In this document: piece after piece, positions 2,445-14,247 of the stretch
Numbering within the stretch: position 1 is the stretch's first letter
How the letters are laid out: each line of letters opens with the position of its first letter
NCBI GenBank assembly: GCA_002070115.1
Contig: MWCO01000002.1
Coordinates: forward strand, 1-64,000
From: Deltaproteobacteria bacterium ADurb.Bin207
GTDB taxonomy: Bacteria > Myxococcota_A > Polyangia > Polyangiales > Polyangiaceae
Length of the DNA: 64,000 nucleotides
Reading direction: 5' to 3'
Translations under genes and position numbers: made by a program
The notes under the pieces: generated by a model
Databases searched by the model: none
Seen by the model: the letters and a program-made list of their open reading frames with translations, nothing else
Told to the model about the DNA's origin: nothing

Positions 2445-5400
2445 TCATTCCGATTGCGCTCCGTTTTGGGGTCTGTGAAGGCCGTATTTCAGGAGTTTCC
2501 GGTACAATGTATTGCGCGGCATGGCGATGGCGCGTGCCACCTCGCTGATATTCCAGCGCTTCGATTCCAGGTGCGCAAGAATCTTGGCGCGCTCTTCTTG
2601 CTCAAAGGCTTTGCGATCTCGCGGCTTGGACTTGCTGTCCACGGACATGGCAGGAAAAAGGTCGAGGTCTGCCAAACCGATAGCGTTTCCTTCGGCCAAT
2701 ACCCACGCGCGTCGCAGGAGATTGTCGAGCTGACGAACATTTCCCGGCAAAGGATGCCGTAGCAACGCTCGCAATGCTTCAGGACGCAGCGTAGCCGCCT
2801 GTTTGCCAAGACTTGAAGCTGCCTGATGGAGAATATGATGACATAAGGCAGGAATATCCTCCGGACGTTCTCGCAAAGGCGGAAGCCTCACTTCGACGAC
2901 GGCAATGCGATAGTAAAGGTCTTCTCGAAATCGACCGGCGGAAATCTCATCGAGCAGGTGACGATTGGTGGCTGAAACCAGACGAATATCGATGGGGATC
3001 TCTTGACTGGAGCCCAGGGGCCTCACGCGCCGTTCTTGCAAAACACGCAGGAGTTTGGCTTGCATTCCAAGGGGCATTTCCCCAATTTCGTCGAGAAAGA
3101 GCGTGCCACCACAGGCGCTCACCAGCAGACCTTTCCGATCCGTATGGGCACCCGTGAAAGCGCCTTTCACCACACCAAATAATTCAGATTCAAGGAGACT
3201 TTCGGGAAGTGCAGCGCAATTGATGGATAAAAATGGCCCTTGGCGACGGGGACCATTGAAGTGCAGCGCCCGTGCAACCAACTCCTTTCCTGTTCCGCTT
3301 TCGCCTTGCACGAGAACATCGATATTCATGTCCGTCACCCGATCCAGCGTGTGGAAAACCGCTTGCATCGGGGCACTTGTCCCGATGATGCTGCTGTAAT
3401 CGTATCGATGTTCGAGGGCTTGTTGGCGCGTTTGCACTTCGGAAGAAAGCTTTTCGATGGTAGCGGCCTGACCTTCGAGCAATTGCTGCACGCGCTCTTG
3501 TTCTTTTTGAAGCGCCTCCGTTCGACGTTCCAAGTCCTCTACGAGGCGTGCATTGCGCAGGGCGATCGCCACCTGGTCCGCGAAAGCTCCCAGCAAGTGG
3601 AGCATGTCCTCGTCGAATTGATCTTTCCGAAAGCGATGGTCGAGATATATGGCCCCAAGCACACCTTGGGGTGTGGTTACAGGTACGCACACAACCGAGC
3701 GAAGCCGCATCGCATGAACCGATTGATGGGAACGAAAACGATCATCGGTAAGAGCATCCGTGGTGGTCACGGGAAGACCTGTTTTCACCACGTTCTCAGC
3801 AATAGACCGACTGAACTTGAGATGGGAACGGCCGATACGCTCCTTGTCGAGATTCCGCGCGACGGCAACATCGAGTTGTTTGCTGTTGGGTTTGGAGCGG
3901 ACGAGCAAAAAACCGCGTTCCGCTCCGGACAGTTCAATCGCCGCGTCCAACGCGAAAGACAGAACATCGTGGGTGGCAAGAGACGAATTGAGCCGTCGGT
4001 TGATCTCGAGGATTCTCAGAAGTTCGCGAGGTGTTGGGGGAGCTGCCTTGAGTGATGGCTCGGGACGATGGGCGCTGCGGCGGGGATGCGCCCAAAATGC
4101 CGGACGAAAAGACTCCGGAAGACCCACCGCCATGGATTCCCAAGCCCTGCGCGCTTGCAGACGATGGTCACAAGCGAGTTGGCTGGCGCCTTGCTGCTCA
4201 TAAATATCGGCCATCAACGTTTGCATTTCAGCGTCGAGCGCGGACTGTTTTGACGCTGCGGCCGAGATCAGGGCTTGTTGTGCATGAGACAGGGCTTGTG
4301 CGGGATGACGACCGAGCAGCGATCGAGCCGACAGAGCGTGCCAGCGAGCGGTAAGGTCCGGGGCAGAGATGTCGCTCAGGGTTTGGAAAAGGCTTTGTCG
4401 CAAGGAATCCGCCTGGGCGTGGTTGCCTTGTTGGAGCAGTAAAGAGGCTTGGTGCCAGCACATTTCGGCTACTTCCCGCTGGGCACCCTGCTGCGAAAAT
4501 AGCCGTTCCGCACGCTCGTATCCTGTCATGGCCTTGTCGATCAAGCCTTCCGCCTCGAAAAGTTCGGCTTCCAGAGCCAGGCGATTGGCTTCGACATAAC
4601 CAAGGTCACGTGTGTTTCGAAGCGTAGAAAGCAGGGTGCGAGCCCGGTCATACACACCAATTCCAGCATAAAGATTGGCAAGATTCAGCGTTAGGGTGCA
4701 AGCCGTATTGCCTTTTCCAATGGCGCGCGCAATCAAAAGTCCACGCTCGTACGATGCCAATGCGTTTCCCCATTCTCCTGCCTGTTGTTGCGCTGTTCCC
4801 AGGTTCATGGCCGTCGAAACCATCTGGTCCCCCAAACCATGCTCTTCCGCCCAACGCGACGCTTGACGGTAACCGTCGATGGCGCGCGGCAGATCCCCCT
4901 GTCGGTAGGCCAGGATCGCCGAAAACGACGAAAGGCGTACTTTTTCCCTCGGTGTGAGCGCGTCAGGGTTCGCCGTATTTGCTTTTTCAAGATGCTCGAC
5001 GGCTTGCTCCATTTGTCCCAAGTAGGTGCAGGCCAGGCCCATACTCGCGTGTAGCTTCGCCCGGGTCGAAGCTTCCGACGTGAGATGCAAGCCAATTTTG
5101 CCGTTGGTGAGCACGTGTTCGTAGTTTCCTTGCTGGATTGCGATTCGGCATCTGGTTTCGAGCAAGCAAGCTTTGACGTCCGGCTTCTCTGCCAGGAAAA
5201 GAGCCGTATTGATGGCTGTTTCTGCTCGTTGAAGTCTGCCCGACGCCAGAAAACATAAGGCTGCTTCCATTCGGCAGGCGATGCGCACGGATACGCCAGG
5301 ACGAGAGCGAAGACAGCGGGCGATCCAGCGCAAGGCTTGCTCAAAGCGTCCACACAAGCGGTTGACTTGTGCGCACGCCACCTGTACTTCCGGTGGCACC

Positions 5401-7196
5401 CTTTCGCCACCAGATACGGCTTCTTCCAAAGCATCGGTGACTGGACGCCACGCTTGCGGAGACTGCTCGATCAAAGACGCGTATTCCAGCAGCAATTGTC
5501 CTGCTTGGAATGATTCGGCCCCGCAGGCGAAGTGATAAGCCCGCATAGGAGGATTATCCGCGCTTTTTTCCGCATGCCAGCGATGAATGCTTGTGACGGT
5601 CTCCCTGTCGATAGAGGCAAGAATACGGGGCGCGATCCAACCTCGTTGCAGTTTCCAATGGCGCCCCTCCCGTTCGATCCATCCCCTTTGATGAAGACGC
5701 AACAAGACGTGTGAAGTTGTCTGACAGCAAGAGCGCAGGGTGGCATCATCACACATCGCGACCGCAAGCCACCCCAGCACGAGTTTTTCTTCTTTCGGCA
5801 AGGAAAGGAATAAGCCTCCGGCCGATTGCGGGGCGGACGCGTGGGGAAGGTCTGATTCAGGAATCTCCCCCCGCAAAACCCTGTCCATAAGAGCTTCCAG
5901 ATCAGCAGGATACCCACCAGTGAGGCGTAGGACATGGGGCACAACGGCTGGACTGAGCAAGCCTTGGGTCCACGCCAAGACACCTGAAGCATCGAGGGGC
6001 CCAAGGGAATAAGTCGTGATTTCCTGATTTTTCAAGGTTGGCTCGTGCCGACTCGTGAGCAAAAGGAGCCAAGGATCCGTGGGTTCGAGGAGCCGGAGCC
6101 AGGCGTCGAGCAACTCGCGCTGGTCGGAAGCAAGAAGGTGGATGTCATCGAGCACCAGCACCACCGGCTGGGAACGTTGCGCAAGCTCGTGGCGTGTCTG
6201 GACGATGGCGGACAAGCCCTGACGGTCAATCGCGGAAGATCCAAGCGCTCGCGCGAACATATCTTCGATAGCACGGGGCGCTCGAGCATCACCTTGTATG
6301 ACTGCGCCTTCAAGCTGAGCTTGCCATTTCATCTCGTTCAGCAAACGGCTTCGTCCAACGCCATCCGGGCCGTGAAAAACGAGACATCGAGGGTGGGGAG
6401 CGCGTTGCCGCAAGGCGCTAAGGGCCTCTTGAAAGGATTTCAGGGGAGCCTGTCTTCCGACGATACGCTCCAGTCGTCCTTGAGGGGGGCCGAGCGTAAA
6501 AGGTGGAAAACCAAAGGCTTCATTGACTTCGGCGGCATCGCTGGGACGGTGGTCCGGATTAGGGTCGATCAGCCGTTGGAGCAGGTTGGAGAGTTCGGGC
6601 GCAGGAGTTGGCAAGACGATGGAGCAGGTGATACCGAAAGCGAAAAGATCGGCACGAATGTCGACCGGGCCTCCTTCGAGCAGTTCCGGAGCCATGAACC
6701 CTAGTGTGCCTGATATGGTATCCAAGGTGGCTTTCAATGGCCGAGCGCAACCGAGGTCGATGAGGACGCCCTGTCCCTGGGGGGTGACGAGGATGTTATC
6801 GGGTTTGATGTCGCCGTGCCGGATTCCCAGGCGATGCAGGAAATGCAGGGCATCGAGAATATGGGCGAGGGGCGTGAGAATATCGTGGGCCGAACGGGAC
6901 TGGGCCCACGGCGTCAGGGGGGTGCCATCGATGAAGTCCGCCGTGTAAAAAAGGTGGTCGGCTTGTTTTTCGAGGTCACGGACGAGGGGTAGGTGAGGGT
7001 GAAACCGTCCGACGAGGATTGCGAATTCTTGCCGCAGGGCCGCGGTGAGGGCGGGGTCATGGGAATGAAGGAGTTTGAGGGTGACGAGGTCATTTCGGAG
7101 CAGGTCACGAGCGAGTAAGGCAGAGGAAGAGGCTCCTTTTCCTAGGGGGTGAAGGATTTCGTAGCGGTGTTGGAGGACGGTGCCCTGCTTGATCAT
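2445..7196 (-). CDS. Kinase-like/AAA/TPR/GAF/sigma54-activator fusion regulator
   Basis: This 1583-residue one-protein signalling chain has five regions. Residues about 11-230 are a Ser/Thr kinase fold with Lys41, HGDIKPDN (127-134) instead of HRDxKxxN, and DLG (147-149) instead of DFG. The C-lobe is shortened. Residues about 245-520 are a STAND-like ATPase with GPDGVGRSR at 276-284, where Arg replaces the P-loop Lys, and LVLDDIH. About 600-1010 is a TPR array. About 1085-1240 is a GAF domain. The sigma54 AAA+ domain has GESGTGKE (1298-1305), GAFTGA (1345-1350) and TLFLDE, and a Fis-type helix-turn-helix lies at about 1540-1575. The GAFTGA loop implies contact with sigma54. The HGD and DLG changes and the P-loop Arg may weaken catalysis in the first two domains. 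It is divergent from the lipoprotein genes at 7446 and 8508, and its leader overlaps TGTACCA/TGGTACA sites, so autoregulation is likely. The ATG at 7196 has only a weak GAG upstream. Confidence 0.93.
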   Translation of the reverse strand: MIKQGTVLQHRYEILHPLGKGASSSALLARDLLRNDLVTLKLLHSHDPALTAALRQEFAILVGRFHPHLPLVRDLEKQADHLFYTADFIDGTPLTPWAQSRSAHDILTPLAHILDALHFLHRLGIRHGDIKPDNILVTPQGQGVLIDLGCARPLKATLDTISGTLGFMAPELLEGGPVDIRADLFAFGITCSIVLPTPAPELSNLLQRLIDPNPDHRPSDAAEVNEAFGFPPFTLGPPQGRLERIVGRQAPLKSFQEALSALRQRAPHPRCLVFHGPDGVGRSRLLNEMKWQAQLEGAVIQGDARAPRAIEDMFARALGSSAIDRQGLSAIVQTRHELAQRSQPVVLVLDDIHLLASDQRELLDAWLRLLEPTDPWLLLLTSRHEPTLKNQEITTYSLGPLDASGVLAWTQGLLSPAVVPHVLRLTGGYPADLEALMDRVLRGEIPESDLPHASAPQSAGGLFLSLPKEEKLVLGWLAVAMCDDATLRSCCQTTSHVLLRLHQRGWIEREGRHWKLQRGWIAPRILASIDRETVTSIHRWHAEKSADNPPMRAYHFACGAESFQAGQLLLEYASLIEQSPQAWRPVTDALEEAVSGGERVPPEVQVACAQVNRLCGRFEQALRWIARCLRSRPGVSVRIACRMEAALCFLASGRLQRAETAINTALFLAEKPDVKACLLETRCRIAIQQGNYEHVLTNGKIGLHLTSEASTRAKLHASMGLACTYLGQMEQAVEHLEKANTANPDALTPREKVRLSSFSAILAYRQGDLPRAIDGYRQASRWAEEHGLGDQMVSTAMNLGTAQQQAGEWGNALASYERGLLIARAIGKGNTACTLTLNLANLYAGIGVYDRARTLLSTLRNTRDLGYVEANRLALEAELFEAEGLIDKAMTGYERAERLFSQQGAQREVAEMCWHQASLLLQQGNHAQADSLRQSLFQTLSDISAPDLTARWHALSARSLLGRHPAQALSHAQQALISAAASKQSALDAEMQTLMADIYEQQGASQLACDHRLQARRAWESMAVGLPESFRPAFWAHPRRSAHRPEPSLKAAPPTPRELLRILEINRRLNSSLATHDVLSFALDAAIELSGAERGFLLVRSKPNSKQLDVAVARNLDKERIGRSHLKFSRSIAENVVKTGLPVTTTDALTDDRFRSHQSVHAMRLRSVVCVPVTTPQGVLGAIYLDHRFRKDQFDEDMLHLLGAFADQVAIALRNARLVEDLERRTEALQKEQERVQQLLEGQAATIEKLSSEVQTRQQALEHRYDYSSIIGTSAPMQAVFHTLDRVTDMNIDVLVQGESGTGKELVARALHFNGPRRQGPFLSINCAALPESLLESELFGVVKGAFTGAHTDRKGLLVSACGGTLFLDEIGEMPLGMQAKLLRVLQERRVRPLGSSQEIPIDIRLVSATNRHLLDEISAGRFREDLYYRIAVVEVRLPPLRERPEDIPALCHHILHQAASSLGKQAATLRPEALRALLRHPLPGNVRQLDNLLRRAWVLAEGNAIGLADLDLFPAMSVDSKSKPRDRKAFEQEERAKILAHLESKRWNISEVARAIAMPRNTLYRKLLKYGLHRPQNGAQSE

Positions 7197-7205
7197 GTCT
7201 CACAC

Positions 7206-7251
7206 TGTACCAATTGCACCTTAGCTGCTCAATTTGGTACAAATTGGTACA
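7206..7251 (+). promoter_or_regulatory. Putative upstream activator sites (TGTACCA ... TGGTACA-N3-TGGTACA)
   Basis: TGTACCA lies at 7206-7212 and TGGTACA at 7235-7241 and 7245-7251. The last two are in tandem with a 10-bp period, which puts them on the same DNA face. The block starts 10 bp upstream of the regulator start codon at 7196. It also lies 52-97 bp upstream of the -24 element at 7302. The same set recurs at 8380-8435. I infer that these are binding sites for the adjacent sigma54 activator, acting both on its own leader and on the 7446 gene. Confidence 0.55.
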
Positions 7252-7301
7252 ATACGACAGGAGAGTCAAGCGAAAAAACACCGTTCGAGCCCCCCCGTAC
7301 T

Positions 7302-7317
7302 TGGCAAGCACTTTGCA
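7302..7317 (+). promoter_or_regulatory. Putative sigma54 promoter (-24/-12) for the 7446 gene
   Basis: The sequence tggcaagcactttgca fits TGGCAC-N5-TTGCW with one mismatch (the sixth base is A). The invariant GG (7303-7304) and GC (7315-7316) are separated by exactly 10 bp. Predicted transcription would begin near 7328, leaving a leader of about 118 nt before the ATG at 7446. Confidence 0.6.
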
Positions 7318-7445
7318 TTCATCAGGCGCTAGGCCCTGCGGCTCATAAGGGTTAACCATGAGAAGACGCGCGGTGCGGGCTGTCGGACCGATGGGGTGAC
7401 ACGCGCGGATAGTGGAAACGATCCCATCGAAATAGGAGTCCTACG

Positions 7446-7940
7446 ATGAAAACGACAAACCTTTTCCTCTCCCTCGCTCTTGCTTTGCCGCTGTATGCTT
7501 GCGGAAGCGATGCATCGGACGAAGATATCAACGGCTCATGGGATAAGCTGACTCCCAGAGTCTGCGAATATGACGGCAAATCCTACAAGGTGGGCGACTC
7601 GTTCCCGGCTGCCGATGGCTGCAACTCCTGCGCATGCAACGAAGATGGCTCGGTGGTCTGCACCCTGGTCGATTGTGAACGCGTTACCTGCGAATACAAC
7701 GGAAAATCCTACGAGGTGGGTGACTCGTTCCCGGCTGCCGATGGCTGCAACTCCTGCGCGTGCAACGAAGATGGCTCGGTGGTCTGCACCCTGGTCGATT
7801 GTGAACGCATTGCCTGCGAATATAACGGTAAATTCTACGAGGTAGGGGCCTCGTTCCCGGCTGCCGATGGCTGCAACTCCTGCGCATGCAACGAAGATGG
7901 CTCGGTGGTCTGCACCCTGGTCGATTGTGAACTATCCTGA
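7446..7940 (+). CDS. Lipoprotein with three pacifastin/VWC-like cysteine-rich repeats
   Basis: A signal peptide ending LALPLYAC (lipobox at Cys19) is followed by a short acidic linker and three nearly identical 42-residue repeats. Each repeat reads C-x18-CNSCAC-x3-G-x3-C-T-x3-C. From the second Cys onward this agrees with the pacifastin signature CNxCxCx(2-3)Gx(3-6)CTx3C. The first loop is longer (18 residues against 9-12), so a von Willebrand type C fold is the alternative. Pacifastins are serine-protease inhibitors known mainly from arthropods. Inhibition here is only an inference. AGGAG at 7434-7438 fixes the start. The gene is probably transcribed from the sigma54 element at 7302. Confidence 0.9.
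   Translation: MKTTNLFLSLALALPLYACGSDASDEDINGSWDKLTPRVCEYDGKSYKVGDSFPAADGCNSCACNEDGSVVCTLVDCERVTCEYNGKSYEVGDSFPAADGCNSCACNEDGSVVCTLVDCERIACEYNGKFYEVGASFPAADGCNSCACNEDGSVVCTLVDCELS
7563..7940 (+). repeat. Three tandem 126-bp coding repeats
   Basis: The units start at the Cys codons 7563, 7689 and 7815, giving a constant 126-bp period (42 codons). Long stretches are identical in all three, including the segment encoding FPAADGCNSCACNEDG. Such DNA-level identity points to recent duplication or gene conversion. Copy number could vary between strains or be misassembled. Confidence 0.9.
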
Positions 7941-8379
7941 ATCTCACCGAAAATGGTGCCCCCCTGGGCTTCCTTGTTTTTTGAGCGCCCTTGCCGCAAC
8001 CGGACCCGCGAATCCCCCACCATCCCTTCTGCCCAACGTCTTTAGCTGCTTATCCACGGCAACCGGCCGATCAGTCCGCGCATCGTTCCCACCGCGGCAA
8101 CCAAGGGCCAAAGCAAAGGCCTGCCATGAGTCGTTCGGAGGCCAATTCGTACGATTCCATTGCCAATCTCGTTGAAATTCGGGGCAACATAAGGCCTTTT
8201 GTGTAGCTAAAACCACGACTATCCTTGCTTCCGTACCAAACGCTTTGGAAAAACGGCTGAAGATACGGTCCCCGGCAAGCGTTGTCCCGCCGCGTGGTTT
8301 CTGCTCCTGAGCGCTGCGTTGGCAGGACAGCGGCTCGAGGTTGCGGAAATGGCGAGAATGCGTCAGAAAAACGCATGAA
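7941..8379. other. Intergenic, no gene recognised
   Basis: This 440-bp stretch lies between the pacifastin-like lipoprotein gene and the activator sites of the next gene. It has a T6 run at about 7974 preceded by only a weak cacc/ggtg stem, which is not a convincing terminator. A long reverse-strand frame (7944-8684) crosses it but has no family-like sequence and overlaps the better-supported 8508 gene. Confidence 0.5.
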
Positions 8380-8435
8380 TGTACCATAGTGTTCAAATTC
8401 GTTGGCACATGCTCATGATGGTACAACATGGTACA
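8380..8435 (+). promoter_or_regulatory. Putative upstream activator sites, second copy
   Basis: TGTACCA lies at 8380-8386 and TGGTACA at 8419-8425 and 8429-8435. The last two have the same 10-bp tandem period as at 7235-7251. The spacing between the inverted and the tandem sites is 39 bp here and 29 bp there, a difference of one helical turn. The first site is 98 bp upstream of the -24 element at 8478, against 96 bp in the other copy. Confidence 0.55.
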
Positions 8436-8477
8436 TACTTCCGATCGGGAATCCCGTGCGTGAGCAGCATTGTGAAT

Positions 8478-8493
8478 TGGCAAGACTTTTGCT
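8478..8493 (+). promoter_or_regulatory. Putative sigma54 promoter (-24/-12) for 8508-10149
   Basis: The sequence tggcaagacttttgct has GG at 8479-8480 and GC at 8491-8492, exactly 10 bp apart. It shares 12 of 16 bases with the element at 7302. The predicted start of transcription near 8504 leaves only about 4 nt before the ATG at 8508. That implies leaderless translation, or that the promoter or start assignment is wrong. Confidence 0.5.
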
Positions 8494-8507
8494 CTACTAT
8501 TTTGGAA

Positions 8508-9386
8508 ATGGCGCACCGTCTCTCCCCAGTTCTGCTTGTCCTCGTCACCCTGCTCGCGTGCGTTCATTGTGGGATCAATCCTGTTCCCGAACCGCCCTCC
8601 GGCGAGCCCATCGCCCCCCCTGCCATCGACAATATCACCGTCTATCCTTTCCAAATCATGACAGAAGGGAATATCAGCATCCACGCAGGCCCGAATACAG
8701 CGGAACCTGGAAGCACGCTATGGGCGATGAATATCGATGGCACCGGCCCTGCCGTGACCACCAAAGTCCACGATGATGGCTCTTTTGCCTTAGAGATTAC
8801 GGCCGGATCCGGTGATGAAGTGCGGTTGCAAGTCCGATCGGGCCAGCAGCGTTCCAAGCCGATTGATGTGATAATTCCCAGTGAAGAAGGCCCTCCAACC
8901 CTCGCCGTGAGGCCCCTGGCAGGCTGCCTTTCCCTCGAGCCGGCTTTCGAGTTGGAACTGCCGCCACCCGCGGGCTCGCAGCCGCCCTCCGCCTCGATTC
9001 TCATCAAAAATCGATGCTCTTCCGATGTGCTCTTCTCCAATATCCACCTTCGCGTCCCTTCCGAGGCTTTCGCCGTGCTGCCTTCGGAATTGACGATCGC
9101 CCCAGGAAACACCGCTGAAGTTGTCGTTCAGGTCTTCGGCGACGCTCCCCGAGAAGAAATTCTCCTGCTCGAAACCCAAGCTCCTGAGCTGGACCGTCGA
9201 CCCATCACCCTTTTCGGCCAAGGAGGCATTCATGGCCTTTTGCCCAACTGCTCCCTTGTGGGAGGCCGTTGTCTCTCAGACCCCATGGATGTCACGTTTC
9301 CGGCCAATTGTGAGGCCTTGGGAATGAAATACCTCGAAGCCACTTGCCAAGCGATGAACCTGAGCTGCTGTGGAGATGCTCCCTGA
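8508..9386 (+). CDS. Lipoprotein with C-terminal six-cysteine CLSDPMDV domain
   Basis: The start MAHRLSPVLL was chosen because it begins a lipoprotein signal ending TLLAC. The longer frame from 8379 would run through the operator sites. Residues about 45-110 look like a beta-sandwich with carboxypeptidase-regulatory-like turns (GTGPAVTTKVHDDGSF). A further beta-rich segment follows (about 120-240, with SILIKNRCSSDVLFSNI). The last 42 residues form the domain C-x6-CLSDPMDV...NC-x11-C-x6-CC, also found twice in the next gene. That gene starts 31 bp downstream, so the two are probably co-transcribed. No enzyme motif was seen, and an extracellular or periplasmic adhesive or protective role is a guess. 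Confidence 0.85.
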   Translation: MAHRLSPVLLVLVTLLACVHCGINPVPEPPSGEPIAPPAIDNITVYPFQIMTEGNISIHAGPNTAEPGSTLWAMNIDGTGPAVTTKVHDDGSFALEITAGSGDEVRLQVRSGQQRSKPIDVIIPSEEGPPTLAVRPLAGCLSLEPAFELELPPPAGSQPPSASILIKNRCSSDVLFSNIHLRVPSEAFAVLPSELTIAPGNTAEVVVQVFGDAPREEILLLETQAPELDRRPITLFGQGGIHGLLPNCSLVGGRCLSDPMDVTFPANCEALGMKYLEATCQAMNLSCCGDAP

Positions 9387-9417
9387 TTCAGCCTGTCACG
9401 AAAAAAGGATACTTGTC

Positions 9418-10149
9418 ATGAAACTAGCAACAAATTGGATGGTACTGGCCCTTTCTTTCCCCTTGTTTGCTTGCAGCGGTACGGTTTCGAACGAGGGAAC
9501 CCATAGCGCGTCAGAGAAATTATCTCGTCAGGAAGCCAAAGCCTTGGACAAGGCAGATTGGCCCACCGACTACTGCGAAGTCAACGGATGGTACGGTGAT
9601 GGGGTGTATTGCGACGACTTCTGTCCTTTGCCTGATCCGGATTGCGCGCAGTCCTGTGCCTCGCTTGGAGGCGAATGCTTGTCGGACCCCATGGACGTTG
9701 GCTTTGGCGCAAACTGTGAACAGCTCGGACGCCGCACCCTGACGGGAGCTTGTGAAGCCTTCAACCAGACCTGCTGCAGCGCCCCTTCGTCGTCGAATCC
9801 CACCTGCGAAGAGATGGGCGGCACCTGCCTGTCGGACCCCATGGACGTTGGTTTTGGCGCGAAATGCGAACAGCTCGGACGCGTGACTATGTCGGGCCGT
9901 TGCGAAGCCATCAACCAAACCTGCTGCAGCGACAAGAAAGAAAGAACGCCTGTAGAGGAGCATTGCATCAGAAATGCAGGCGATTCCTGCGAGGCGGATG
10001 CAGATTGCCAAACCGGGGGGTGTGGCGGAGAGTTATGTTACAACCCGGCGTTCGAGGGGGGGATAAGCACCTGTGATTGCGCCGAACCACAGCCACCTTT
10101 GGTCGCTGGATGCGGCTGTGTCGACGGTGTCTGTTCCTGGTATAAGTGA
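9418..10149 (+). CDS. Lipoprotein with two CLSDPMDV domains and a Cys-cluster tail
   Basis: The ATG at 9418 follows aaaaaagga and starts a signal peptide ending FPLFAC. The longer frame from 9370 overlaps the preceding gene. The mature protein has an acidic-aromatic segment CEVNGWYGDGVYCDDFC of a kind I recall from myxobacterial secreted proteins. Two six-Cys CLSDPMDV domains follow (C-x6-C-x12-C-x11-C-x6-CC). The tail, CGGELCYNP...CDCAEP...CGCVDGVCSW, resembles the bacterial eight-cysteine-cluster domain. The six-Cys spacing with a terminal CC recalls defensin-like folds, but with a longer second loop. The likely product is an exported disulfide-rich protein, second in an operon with the 8508 gene. 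Confidence 0.87.
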   Translation: MKLATNWMVLALSFPLFACSGTVSNEGTHSASEKLSRQEAKALDKADWPTDYCEVNGWYGDGVYCDDFCPLPDPDCAQSCASLGGECLSDPMDVGFGANCEQLGRRTLTGACEAFNQTCCSAPSSSNPTCEEMGGTCLSDPMDVGFGAKCEQLGRVTMSGRCEAINQTCCSDKKERTPVEEHCIRNAGDSCEADADCQTGGCGGELCYNPAFEGGISTCDCAEPQPPLVAGCGCVDGVCSWYK

Positions 10150-11160: not shown

Positions 11161-11838
11161 TCAGAACCAGCCCACCATACCGGCGTATACACCGAAATGC
11201 AGGGCGCTGAGATCCCCATCGACACGCCCTGCATCAAATTCTCCGGTGAGCGGCAGACCTAGCGCAGGCCCGACTTCCAGTCCAAAACCTCCCGATATCC
11301 CAAACACGAACATTCCTTCCGCCTCGAACTGCAACGCGGAAGCTTCAGAGACATCACTATACTCGGGGTCCGCTTCTATCGACACATAGGTGGGACCACC
11401 ACGAAGCCAGAACCAGATCGTATCGCTCAACCCAAACGCATATCCCACGCGCGGAGCGAAGGTAACTGCGGTGTGATCCCCTTCCATGCTACTACCACCC
11501 GACTTCACCTTAACCGAAGCCGTCGAAAAGCCTACGGATCCGCCCAGAGAAAGACCGTCGATGACGAAATAGTCAAACGACGTTCGAGGGTAGATGGCAG
11601 GAACAACAGGGCTTGCCCCTGCTTGAGCACCCCACAACAAGGAGAAAACCGTTCCCTTGACATCGATATCATCGGTATACGGAATATCCGGGTCAAGCGT
11701 AATTTTATAGCTCGTTACCCCAAATAAGTGGTCCGCGCTCAGCGCCATCGCTCCTTTTTCCGCGAATTGTTGTGCCAATGCCGGGGTACCCAGGCAAGTA
11801 AGCGTGGTTAGCGAAGCTCCTATGATGAATCGGCGCAT
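11161..11838 (-). CDS. Exported beta-barrel-like outer-membrane protein
   Basis: The start MRRFIIGASL follows AGGAG (ggacaggagaattgcc) and begins a type I signal peptide ending TPALAQQ. The longer frame adds 24 residues with no signal character. The mature protein of about 205 residues alternates polar and hydrophobic residues in amphipathic strands (FDYFVIDGLSLGGSVGFST, WFWLRGGPTYVSIEAD) and ends in Trp-Phe, typical of the outer-membrane beta-signal. A barrel of about eight strands is likely, and a pore, adhesin or structural role cannot be told apart. A TTGAAC-17-TATTTT promoter lies upstream. Confidence 0.8.
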   Translation of the reverse strand: MRRFIIGASLTTLTCLGTPALAQQFAEKGAMALSADHLFGVTSYKITLDPDIPYTDDIDVKGTVFSLLWGAQAGASPVVPAIYPRTSFDYFVIDGLSLGGSVGFSTASVKVKSGGSSMEGDHTAVTFAPRVGYAFGLSDTIWFWLRGGPTYVSIEADPEYSDVSEASALQFEAEGMFVFGISGGFGLEVGPALGLPLTGEFDAGRVDGDLSALHFGVYAGMVGWF

Positions 11839-11875
11839 GGCAATTCTCCTGTCCACAACACCACCTAGCTGGACG

Positions 11876-11904
11876 AAAATACTCCTGTTGGCATCGAAGT
11901 TCAA
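11876..11904 (-). promoter_or_regulatory. Putative sigma70 promoter of the 11161-11838 gene
   Basis: On the minus strand, TTGAAC (11904-11899) and TATTTT (11881-11876) are 17 bp apart, and the -10 box ends about 37 bp upstream of the start codon. The match is moderate. Confidence 0.4.
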
Positions 11905-11920
11905 AGACAATTCAAAGTAT

Positions 11921-12241
11921 TTAAAACTCTGGATTTATTGAAAGACGTTCGACAACAGTACCATTTTCAATCGCATCAAGGATATCCTGGATATCCTCTA
12001 TGGTGACTCGACCATACATGATATGTTGCGGCTCGACCAATATCGATGGCCCCGTCGTGCAGGCATCCAAGCAGCTACAAGACACCACCCGGGCGCGTAC
12101 ACGGGCCAATCCTCGCTCCTTGAGCCCCGCCCGCAGCGCCTTGTACACCTGTTCCGACCCTCTTTCCGCACACGAGCCCTTCGGACTCCCATCCGGGCGG
12201 CGGTTCACACAAACCATCAAGTATTGGTCTCGAAGCGGCAT
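11921..12241 (-). CDS. Thioredoxin-like [2Fe-2S] ferredoxin
   Basis: This 106-residue cytosolic protein has Cys11, Cys24, Cys57 and Cys61, with an extra Cys55. The C-x12-C and C-x3-C spacings are those of thioredoxin-fold ferredoxins (Aquifex Fd, NuoE C-domain) that bind one [2Fe-2S] cluster. The context VVSCSCLDACTTGPSILVEP followed by MYGRVTIEDIQDIL is standard for the family. The electron partner is unknown. The gene ends 82 bp upstream of the start of the outer-membrane protein gene on the same strand. It is divergent from the VWA gene at 12367. No clear ribosome-binding site precedes the ATG at 12241. Confidence 0.88.
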   Translation of the reverse strand: MPLRDQYLMVCVNRRPDGSPKGSCAERGSEQVYKALRAGLKERGLARVRARVVSCSCLDACTTGPSILVEPQHIMYGRVTIEDIQDILDAIENGTVVERLSINPEF

Positions 12242-12366
12242 AAACGCTTATCTGACGGGGCCTTGCCTCGACGTCAAGCACACAATTCACATTCGAGCCC
12301 AATGAAGGAAACATGACCGTGTCAAATGTGTCACCATATCGGCTGGCAAGGCTCAGGAGGGTTCGC

Positions 12367-14247
12367 ATGCTTCGTTACAATTCGTTTCGCTGGTGGTGTG
12401 GGTGGATCGTGCAGCTATCGTGGGTAGTCTCGCTGCTCATGTTCGTCGGTTGCCGAAATAGTTCACCCAGCGACAAGAATGCCGCCGCTGCAAGCATCGA
12501 CCATCCGCCAGGACTCCCTCACCCAGAAATGGAAGCCAACCAAGTTGCTCTCGAAGAACCCGGCGGCACAAGGTCAGGCACGCCCAATGGCATTCCTCCT
12601 GCGTTACGAGGACCGCGACTCGCCAACGGCGAAAAAGGTGGTGGCCTGGGAAATCATGCGCGATCACCAGGCGCGCCACCGCTGGCTGCCCAAGAATCAT
12701 CCCCCTTCATGGCAGGACAGCCAATCACGGCCGAACCACAATTGGCCATCGACCCCAACGGCCGATTTGCCACGACGTATCGCCCCGGCGGTGGGCATCT
12801 GGCCGCCTTCGAATCAGCGGTGGCAAGGGGAATCGTCCCGGGCGCCGAACGGGAACTCGTCAGCGATGTGGGCGCGCGATATTGGACGCCGATGGACTCT
12901 CCCCGGGACCGTGCCTTGGCCCTTCGAACGGACTTCGAACGCGCCGCACTTCCGCCAAGCGGGGGGGAGACACACATGCGTCTGTCTCTTCGTTCCAGTG
13001 ATCGAGCTGCCGCCGCACGCCCTCATCTTTCCGTTCATCTCGTGCTCGATGTCAGCGGTTCGATGCGGGGAGAGCCCATGGACCAAGCCAAATCCGCGGC
13101 CAAAGCCTTGTTCGACCGGCTTGCTCCCAACGATGATTTTTCTCTCATCACGTTCTCGACCGATGCCCAGGTGCGTGTGCAAAACACACGCGTGGCAGCC
13201 GCCAAAGCGCGTGTTCACGGTGCCATCGACGAGATCGAAGCTACGGGGGGAACCAATATCAGCGAAGGACTTCGTCTGGGCTATGCACAAGCAAAAAGCG
13301 GGGGAATTCCAGCAGATGCCGTGCGGGTGGTGTTCCTCCTTTCCGACGGTCGAGCCAATTCCGGTATCACCAGCCCCCAGCGGTTGTCCCAACTTGCGCT
13401 CGAAGCTTTCCAGGACGGGATTCAAACCAGCACCTTCGGTCTCGGCACCGATTACGACGGTCCCTTGATGAGCGCCATCGCTTCCGATGGTGCCGGCGGC
13501 TATTACTACCTTCGCGACGGACAGCAAATCGCACCGGCCCTTTCCACCGAATTGGACCGACGCCTGGACCCCGCCGCTACCGCCGTGGAAATCCGCATAC
13601 GCTGGAGCCAGGGAATCGATGTGCTTCAAGTGTATGGCTCACGGCGTCTCAATGAGGCGGAAGCCGCTCGGGTGCGCGCGATCGAAGTGGCCGCGGACGA
13701 TCAAGCGGCAAAGCGTGACCGCATCAAAAAAGACCGGCAAGACGATACGCAGGGCGGGATGAGGTTTTTGATTCCTGCTTTCGCTCGCGATGACAACCAC
13801 GTGATGCTGTTCAAAATTCGTGTCCCCGCTGGTGTCGAACCACGCCAGGTGGCCCTGATCGAACTCAAATACAAAGACCGGGGAACGAAACGAAATTTCT
13901 CCGAGGAAGTGCGTGTCAACCTGCCATACGCCAACAGCGATGCCCAAAGTGCCCAATCCATCCAGCCGCAGGTCGCACGAACGGTGCAAGGATTCGCCGC
14001 GGGCGAAACCTTGATGGAAGCGGCCCGATTCGTGAGCCATGGGGACCGTCCCCGCGCCCTGGCCTTGCTCACCGAACGAGAGCAAATCCTTCGCAAGGCC
14101 GCGGAATCATTACAAGAACCTGGATTTCGACGAGATGCCGATCGGCTTGCGCGTTTTCGTTCCCATCTAGACACCAACGCCGGGGTAGGCGAATCTCTCG
14201 TGCTCGCCATGCTTCTCGAAACCGCGGGAAGGGCTCACCTTCGCTGA
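12367..14247 (+). CDS. VWA-domain lipoprotein
   Basis: The strong site caggagggttcgc before the ATG at 12367 decides the start, 54 nt inside the longest frame. The signal peptide ends LLMFVGC. A low-complexity linker is followed by a typical N-flank and a VWA domain. Its metal-ion site is complete: DVSGS at about 228-232, Thr of GGTNIS at about 295, and SDG at about 328. The C-terminal third is a beta-sandwich and helical tail (FAAGETLMEAARFVSHGD) like that of batA/YfbK-type VWA proteins. A Mg-dependent ligand-binding role in the cell envelope is likely. The next gene begins 25 bp later and encodes a membrane protein, so the two probably work together. Confidence 0.9.
   Translation: MLRYNSFRWWCGWIVQLSWVVSLLMFVGCRNSSPSDKNAAAASIDHPPGLPHPEMEANQVALEEPGGTRSGTPNGIPPALRGPRLANGEKGGGLGNHARSPGAPPLAAQESSPFMAGQPITAEPQLAIDPNGRFATTYRPGGGHLAAFESAVARGIVPGAERELVSDVGARYWTPMDSPRDRALALRTDFERAALPPSGGETHMRLSLRSSDRAAAARPHLSVHLVLDVSGSMRGEPMDQAKSAAKALFDRLAPNDDFSLITFSTDAQVRVQNTRVAAAKARVHGAIDEIEATGGTNISEGLRLGYAQAKSGGIPADAVRVVFLLSDGRANSGITSPQRLSQLALEAFQDGIQTSTFGLGTDYDGPLMSAIASDGAGGYYYLRDGQQIAPALSTELDRRLDPAATAVEIRIRWSQGIDVLQVYGSRRLNEAEAARVRAIEVAADDQAAKRDRIKKDRQDDTQGGMRFLIPAFARDDNHVMLFKIRVPAGVEPRQVALIELKYKDRGTKRNFSEEVRVNLPYANSDAQSAQSIQPQVARTVQGFAAGETLMEAARFVSHGDRPRALALLTEREQILRKAAESLQEPGFRRDADRLARFRSHLDTNAGVGESLVLAMLLETAGRAHLR

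Follow-up and report, generated by a model that had tools for sequence, protein, structure and literature searches.

We analysed the first 64,000 nucleotides (nt) of contig MWCO01000002.1 (positions 1 to 64,000; hereafter, the window) of Deltaproteobacteria bacterium ADurb.Bin207 (GCA_002070115.1; genome 6.55 Mb). The locus of interest contains a gene for a putative kinase-fused sigma54 activator (P0001) and, divergent from it, genes starting at 7446 and 8508 for a cysteine-rich (Cys-rich) lipoprotein (P0002) and lipoprotein A (P0003), the latter followed by a gene for Cys-rich lipoprotein B (P0004). Two sigma54-type promoter elements, each preceded by a pair of 17-base-pair (bp) sites, lie upstream of the genes at 7446 and 8508:

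2445..7196, minus strand: activator gene (P0001), 1583 amino acids (aa), with the Pfam domains given below and recognition helix PRNTLYRK
7196-7212, minus strand: left 17-mer of promoter 1, TGGTACAGTGTGAGACA, with one strong and one variant half-site; found at 2 mismatches
7235-7251, plus strand: right 17-mer of promoter 1, TGGTACAAATTGGTACA, exact tandem
7302-7317, plus strand: sigma54 −24/−12 element of promoter 1, TGGCAAGCACTTTGCA, with GG at 7303-7304 and GC at 7315-7316; predicted transcription start (+1) near 7328
8380-8396, minus strand: left 17-mer of promoter 2, TTGAACACTATGGTACA; found at 2 mismatches
8419-8435, plus strand: right 17-mer of promoter 2, TGGTACAACATGGTACA, exact tandem
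8478-8493, plus strand: sigma54 −24/−12 element of promoter 2, TGGCAAGACTTTTGCT, with GG at 8479-8480 and GC at 8491-8492; predicted +1 near 8504

Promoter elements and paired sites beside the activator gene

Pfam matches in P0001 comprise Pkinase (residues 12-195; E-value 3.4e-25), AAA_16 (245-377), TPRs, GAF (1076-1213), Sigma54_activat (1270-1436; 4.2e-68), and HTH_8 (1532-1571; 8.7e-9), and so account for every domain of the divergent kinase-AAA-TPR-GAF-sigma54 protein with GAFTGA loop and Fis helix-turn-helix (HTH) that an earlier reading of the DNA (hereafter, the sequence-only reading) had described. The GAFTGA motif and the Walker A motif GESGTGKE are both present, as they are in 42/46 and 44/46 long family members, respectively, and the kinase motifs VTLK, HGDIKPDN, DLG, and APE correspond to the expected VAxK, HxDxKxxN, DxG, and APE. 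The AAA+ sigma54 domain, the C-terminal Fis-type HTH, and the −24/−12 targets with upstream sites mark P0001 as a probable member of the NtrC family. No receiver domain is present among the best 25 of the 27 Pfam matches, the kinase domain standing in its place; no HisKA/HATPase output is found by Pfam, the sigma54 domain and HTH occupying that place; and a 19-residue hydropathy profile (maximum 1.39) reveals no transmembrane segment.

Both near-consensus −24/−12 elements have the sequence GG-N10-GC and share 12/16 bases, as had been read from the letters. Across the 64-kb window, TGGCANGNNNNTTGCW is matched at these two places and nowhere else (0.07 matches expected; 0/100 shuffles reach two). 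The exact tandem TGGTACA-N3-TGGTACA (TGGTACANNNTGGTACA) is present in two copies in the whole genome, at 7235-7251 and 8419-8435; with up to 2 mismatches allowed, the genome search also returned, independently, the complements of 7196-7212 and 8380-8396. The spacing from 17-mer to 17-mer is 39 bp at promoter 1 and at promoter 2, and is the same in two relatives of another family (loci L073 and L124).

The sequence-only reading had described a TGTACCA followed by two TGGTACA sites, with a gap that differs between the promoters by 10 bp, one helical turn. The tandem pair holds, but TGTACCA, rather than an isolated inverted site, is half of a weaker second 17-mer on the other strand, and for this reason the geometry is the same at the two promoters. 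The apparent 10-bp difference is a labelling effect that arises because the better half is the inner half at promoter 1 and the outer half at promoter 2, and a helical-turn shift between the promoters was rejected. At promoter 1, the left 17-mer directly adjoins the activator's start codon (complement of ATG, 7194-7196), in agreement with the proposal that one site set overlaps the activator's own leader.

Relatives, site exclusivity, and the recognition helix

Full-length activator relatives are present in 14 of 39 near genomes, most of them with TGT..ACA-type sites and a divergent lipoprotein gene directly upstream. A lipoprotein-A profile detects members in 58/184 genomes of Polyangiales, including Sorangium cellulosum So0157-2, So ce26, So ceGT47, and So0008-312, one Polyangiaceae metagenome-assembled genome (MAG), and one Sandaracinaceae MAG; outside the order, 379 genomes sampled from the phylum gave weak partial matches only. 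A scan of the genome contigs with P0003 gave no match, and neither did a search for plasmid carriage. The kinase-activator gene adjoins the lipoprotein-A gene at about 50 of 60 loci, mostly in divergent orientation and within 100-300 bp, and the combination of activator, tandem TGRNACA sites, sigma54 promoter, and lipoprotein A is found in at least 21 genera.

Elsewhere in the window's own genome, another unit of kinase-activator and lipoprotein A, this one with sites of the TGATACA type, is divided between contigs C126 (L063:9959-10216) and C136 (L147:1-658), the ends of which overlap by 19 bases, reading into CENAISPQPEPP. The kinase-sigma54 paralogues at C7 and C8 of the same genome have neither such sites nor a lipoprotein gene in the upstream stretch read. 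In a genome of another family (G032, L072:4900-6244), two sigma54 elements precede a Cys-rich lipoprotein gene and a lipoprotein-A-like gene, as in the window; the sites upstream of the second element are degenerate. One genome, G180, has about nine copies of the lipoprotein-A gene (L127, L143, L149, L160-L163, L165), several of them accompanied by a kinase-activator of their own, which suggests a lineage-specific expansion.

In 51 activator-adjacent intergenic regions, we count 136 TGRNACA half-sites, versus a mean of 10.3 and a maximum of 20 in dinucleotide shuffles; at nine lipoprotein-A loci having no activator upstream, the count is 0. When each genus is represented by a single locus and the window is excluded, 20 genera yield 45 half-sites on average, versus 3.7 in shuffles. 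Minus-strand half-sites lie to the left of plus-strand half-sites in 82/86 pairs. Sigma54-type elements scoring at least 6 point towards the lipoprotein gene in 30/51 regions; the opposite strand has 0, and shuffles have a mean of 0.9.

The distance from the first G of the −24 element to the lipoprotein-A start codon is 25-32 nt (mode 27) in 39/48 loci; other 8-nt bands contain 1-11. At sigma54 promoters, the −24 position is 24 nt before the transcription start. Given this near-constant distance, 27-30 nt in most relatives, and assuming the usual sigma54 spacing, lipoprotein-A mRNAs are predicted to be near-leaderless, with a 5′ leader of about 2-5 nt, 4 nt in the window.

The tandem motif is exclusive to these loci in the genomes scanned. 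In ten other genomes (~120 Mb), TGGWACA-N3-TGGWACA has 8 matches, every one in an activator/lipoprotein intergenic region; in eleven genomes, TGAGACA-N5-TGAGACA has 4 matches, every one at a Sorangium unit of that site class. It therefore appears that each activator is a dedicated regulator, serving no locus but its own. The term regulon, used in the sequence-only reading, holds for the activator-linked lipoprotein genes at the locus but not genome-wide, and a genome-wide regulon was rejected, there being no tandem sites elsewhere in the genomes scanned.

The site sequence covaries with the activator's recognition helix, R-X-[TS]-[LF]-Y-R. Specifically, X is A or P where the sites are TGAGACA or TGATACA, and T, N, or M where they are TGGTACA or TGGAACA. 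Residue X agrees with the site class in 39/40 activators (Fisher 2.7e-10, a value that overstates the case because the relatives are not independent), with 4-5 switches on an activator tree built without the HTH. Both classes are found within single genomes: in G018 (Sorangium; M/TGG at L074, A/TGA at L070), in So0157-2 (one unit of each, L114 and L129), and in the window's genome (N/TGG at the window locus, P/TGA at C126). A sister clade of kinase-sigma54 activators with helix R-R-T-F-Y-R (L080, L081, and L083), outside the family on the tree, has at most one TGGCACA half-site upstream and may represent a third DNA specificity.

The lipoproteins and their partners

The lipoprotein genes of the window have the following features:

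7446..7940, plus strand: Cys-rich lipoprotein P0002; the protein has three pacifastin/VWC/TILa-like repeats, and an AGGAG ribosome-binding site lies in the predicted mRNA leader of about 118 nt
8508..9386, plus strand: lipoprotein A (P0003), in which C-x3-PxPxPP follows the lipobox; the protein also has two Ig-like beta-sandwich domains and a C-terminal six-Cys module
9246..9383, plus strand: six-Cys module of lipoprotein A, CSLVGGRCLSDPMDV...CC, defined by alignment; two copies in the next gene
9418..10149, plus strand: Cys-rich lipoprotein B (P0004), with a GWYGDGxxCDDFCPxPDPDC module, a six-Cys module in two copies, and, below cut-off, an eight-Cys cluster
9655..9777, plus strand: first six-Cys module of P0004, defined by alignment
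9805..9927, plus strand: second six-Cys module of P0004, defined by alignment

P0002 matches Pacifastin_I (1.6e-16; 60.1 bits versus a cut-off of 27.9), TILa (4.6e-11), and VWC2L, and has no match in a PDB sequence search. The label pacifastin-like is thereby borne out; defensin-like, the other label given to these proteins, finds no match in Pfam, NCBIfam, or PDB sequences. Lipoprotein A, earlier grouped with the Cys-rich lipoproteins, is a lipoprotein but not primarily a Cys-rich one, being a two-domain Ig-like protein with a short Cys-rich tail that is present in the window gene and absent from aligned relatives. Its AlphaFold2 model, with window and genome-contig sequences as input, contains two beta-sandwich regions predicted with confidence; by Foldseek, the solved folds nearest to it are MSP/HYDIN/Cep192-type Ig domains. 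The likeness to ASH/MSP/PapD-like Ig domains (Cep192, HYDIN, VAP-A) extends to part of lipoprotein A (TM-score 0.57-0.69 by target length); in contrast to these, lipoprotein A is a secreted bacterial lipoprotein starting with C-x3-PxPxPP, and the full-length alignment is poor (root-mean-square deviation > 15 Å). The six-Cys module of P0003 and P0004 has no Pfam, NCBIfam, or PDB sequence match, and its AlphaFold2 model, from 3 sequences, is of moderate confidence (predicted local distance difference test 78; predicted template modelling score 0.57). The GWYGDGxxCDDFCPxPDPDC module of P0004 is common to partner genes of relatives.

The partner genes of relatives encode lipoproteins with 8-80 cysteines in tandem modules that are Kazal, pacifastin, or unnamed. 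In particular, Kazal_1 is matched at 7e-28 in Sorangium (L129) and at 4e-19 at L131, and Pacifastin_I at 8e-19 at L160, a partner of the same class as the window gene at 7446; other partner modules match no named family. At L153, L155, L156, and L162, the partner gene is located between activator and lipoprotein A, like 7446 in the window. An open-reading-frame (ORF) filter finds no such partner at about 1/3 of the loci with enough flank. Judged by sequence, the partner is usually a Cys-rich lipoprotein of shuffled modules, many resembling protease inhibitors.

A proposed one-locus sigma54 switch and its alternatives

We propose that the locus is a dedicated, self-contained sigma54 switch for the two lipoprotein promoters, a reading to which we assign a probability of about 0.8. 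Specifically, a soluble 1583-aa protein would combine a sensory block (Ser/Thr kinase, AAA/STAND-like ATPase, TPR, and GAF) with an AAA+ sigma54-activator domain and a Fis-type HTH; HTH dimers would bind the 17-bp sites (two TGGTACA half-sites, 10 bp apart), two of which, 39 bp apart, would act from above each promoter; and, upon triggering of the sensory block, the protein would oligomerise and its ATPase would open sigma54-RNA polymerase at 7302-7317 and 8478-8493, switching on the pacifastin-like lipoprotein gene and the lipoprotein A/lipoprotein B pair. The activator would probably also limit its own synthesis (negative autoregulation), because the left site abuts its start codon. Lipoprotein A would be a conserved carrier or scaffold with Ig-like domains, and the partner, displayed on the cell surface, would be a rapidly changing set of disulfide modules that often belong to protease-inhibitor families.

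Gene order, motifs, conservation, exclusivity, and covariation of HTH residue and site are direct results of the computation. Binding, activation, autoregulation, and the near-leaderless start are steps that we infer. The claim of the sequence-only reading that the adjacent activator controls the lipoprotein promoters gains support from conservation in 21 genera, loss of the sites where the activator is missing, helix covariation, and motif exclusivity. The kinase could act on the activator itself or on partners; because some relatives have degenerate kinase motifs, the trigger may be something other than phosphorylation in part of the family, and where the motifs are incomplete the domain may be a ligand-sensing pseudokinase.

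Several observations weigh against the proposed switch or its generality. Fewer than two half-sites are recognisable at 11/51 loci, several sigma54 elements are weak, and catalytic motifs of the kinase are degenerate or incomplete in some relatives. The spacing between the right-hand 17-mer, measured from its first base, and the −24 GG is unequal at the two window promoters (68 bp at promoter 1 and 60 bp at promoter 2, a difference of 8 bp). The covariation comes from only 4-5 evolutionary switches, an independent-pairs test being underpowered (too few pairs); L139 is an exception to the residue rule, and the TGGCACA half-site is unaccounted for by it. The role given to the lipoproteins is read from domain names.

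The alternative that survives best, at somewhat less than even odds, accepts the activator-driven sigma54 promoters and takes the lipoproteins to be structural or adhesive components (matrix, spore coat, or fruiting body), with the disulfide modules as robust extracellular beads. Many partner modules match no inhibitor family (proteins 3-7 and 10 of those scanned), and the Ig/MSP-like character of lipoprotein A would suit such a role; however, Kazal and pacifastin modules far above Pfam cut-offs in several lineages are unexpected of generic beads. That the sites belong to another, trans-encoded regulator, or are repressor operators of the divergent genes, with the activator merely adjacent, we consider improbable: the left site is operator-like in adjoining the activator start codon, but the sites are missing where the activator is missing, their sequence follows the activator's own recognition helix, and the tandem motif is nowhere else in the genomes scanned. 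Chance similarity of motifs in two intergenic regions, conceivable in that single TGTACCA/TGGTACA words are short, is of negligible probability given the window and genome counts, the cross-genus conservation, the shuffles, and the exclusivity, which bear out the earlier view that the arrangement is hard to explain by chance.

Beyond the switch itself, we tentatively suggest, as a possibility that falls short of an even bet, a surface system widespread in Polyangiales, in which a single-protein kinase-STAND-GAF-sigma54 sensor, its DNA specificity retuned by one helix residue, would control a private one-locus regulon through near-leaderless sigma54 mRNAs, and a constant Ig-like carrier with a hypervariable, shuffled protease-inhibitor partner would act against rival, prey, or self proteases. 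What signal triggers the sensor is a matter of guesswork, and so is the idea that the lipoproteins serve to protect against proteases, whether foreign or the cell's own.

The activator resembles NtrC-family proteins (NtrC, NifA, and Nla28 of Myxococcus xanthus) in its AAA+ sigma54 domain with GAFTGA, its GAF domain, its Fis HTH, and its paired half-sites upstream of a −24/−12 element; unlike them, it has a block of Ser/Thr kinase, AAA_16, and TPR as sensory part in place of a receiver. Nla28 likewise uses tandem direct repeats (PMC9765219), but 70 promoters have been proposed for it (PMC9765219), versus one local target here. Sigma54 has been linked with the cell exterior (PMC3162934). The cyanobacterial dual Ser/Thr-histidine kinases (STK-GAF-HisKA, HstK type; PMC2176072, PMC1262709) also have an N-terminal Ser/Thr kinase and a GAF domain in one chain; unlike these, which end in HisKA/HATPase, the window protein ends in a sigma54 activator and HTH, a direct DNA output. 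The partner lipoproteins match Kazal and pacifastin/VWC inhibitors above curated Pfam cut-offs, but these bacterial proteins are lipid-anchored, with modules that occur in tandem alongside unnamed Cys modules, and are putative inhibitors. In the open literature searched, with subscription papers outside its scope and priority thus not proven, we found no Ser/Thr-kinase-fused sigma54 activator with a defined target.

Activator, putative binding code, sole apparent target, and conserved operon come together at this locus. The operon is conserved in cultured Sorangium strains (So0157-2, So ce26, and So ceGT47), which makes the chain from kinase to lipoprotein testable at one locus. That a cargo resembling protease inhibitors keeps recurring and diversifying suggests that these bacteria have an unstudied trait of surface defence or self-protection, and near-leaderless sigma54 transcripts, if real, would imply an unusual translation mode.

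Elsewhere in the window, a fragment at the left edge (29-667) resembles the C-terminal part of a transposase. On the other side of the locus lie an outer-membrane-beta-barrel-like ORF (11161-11910, minus strand), a small ferredoxin-like ORF (11921-12241, minus strand), and a gene (12313-14247) for a lipoprotein-like protein whose apparent von Willebrand A domain was recognised by eye from a DVSGS motif.

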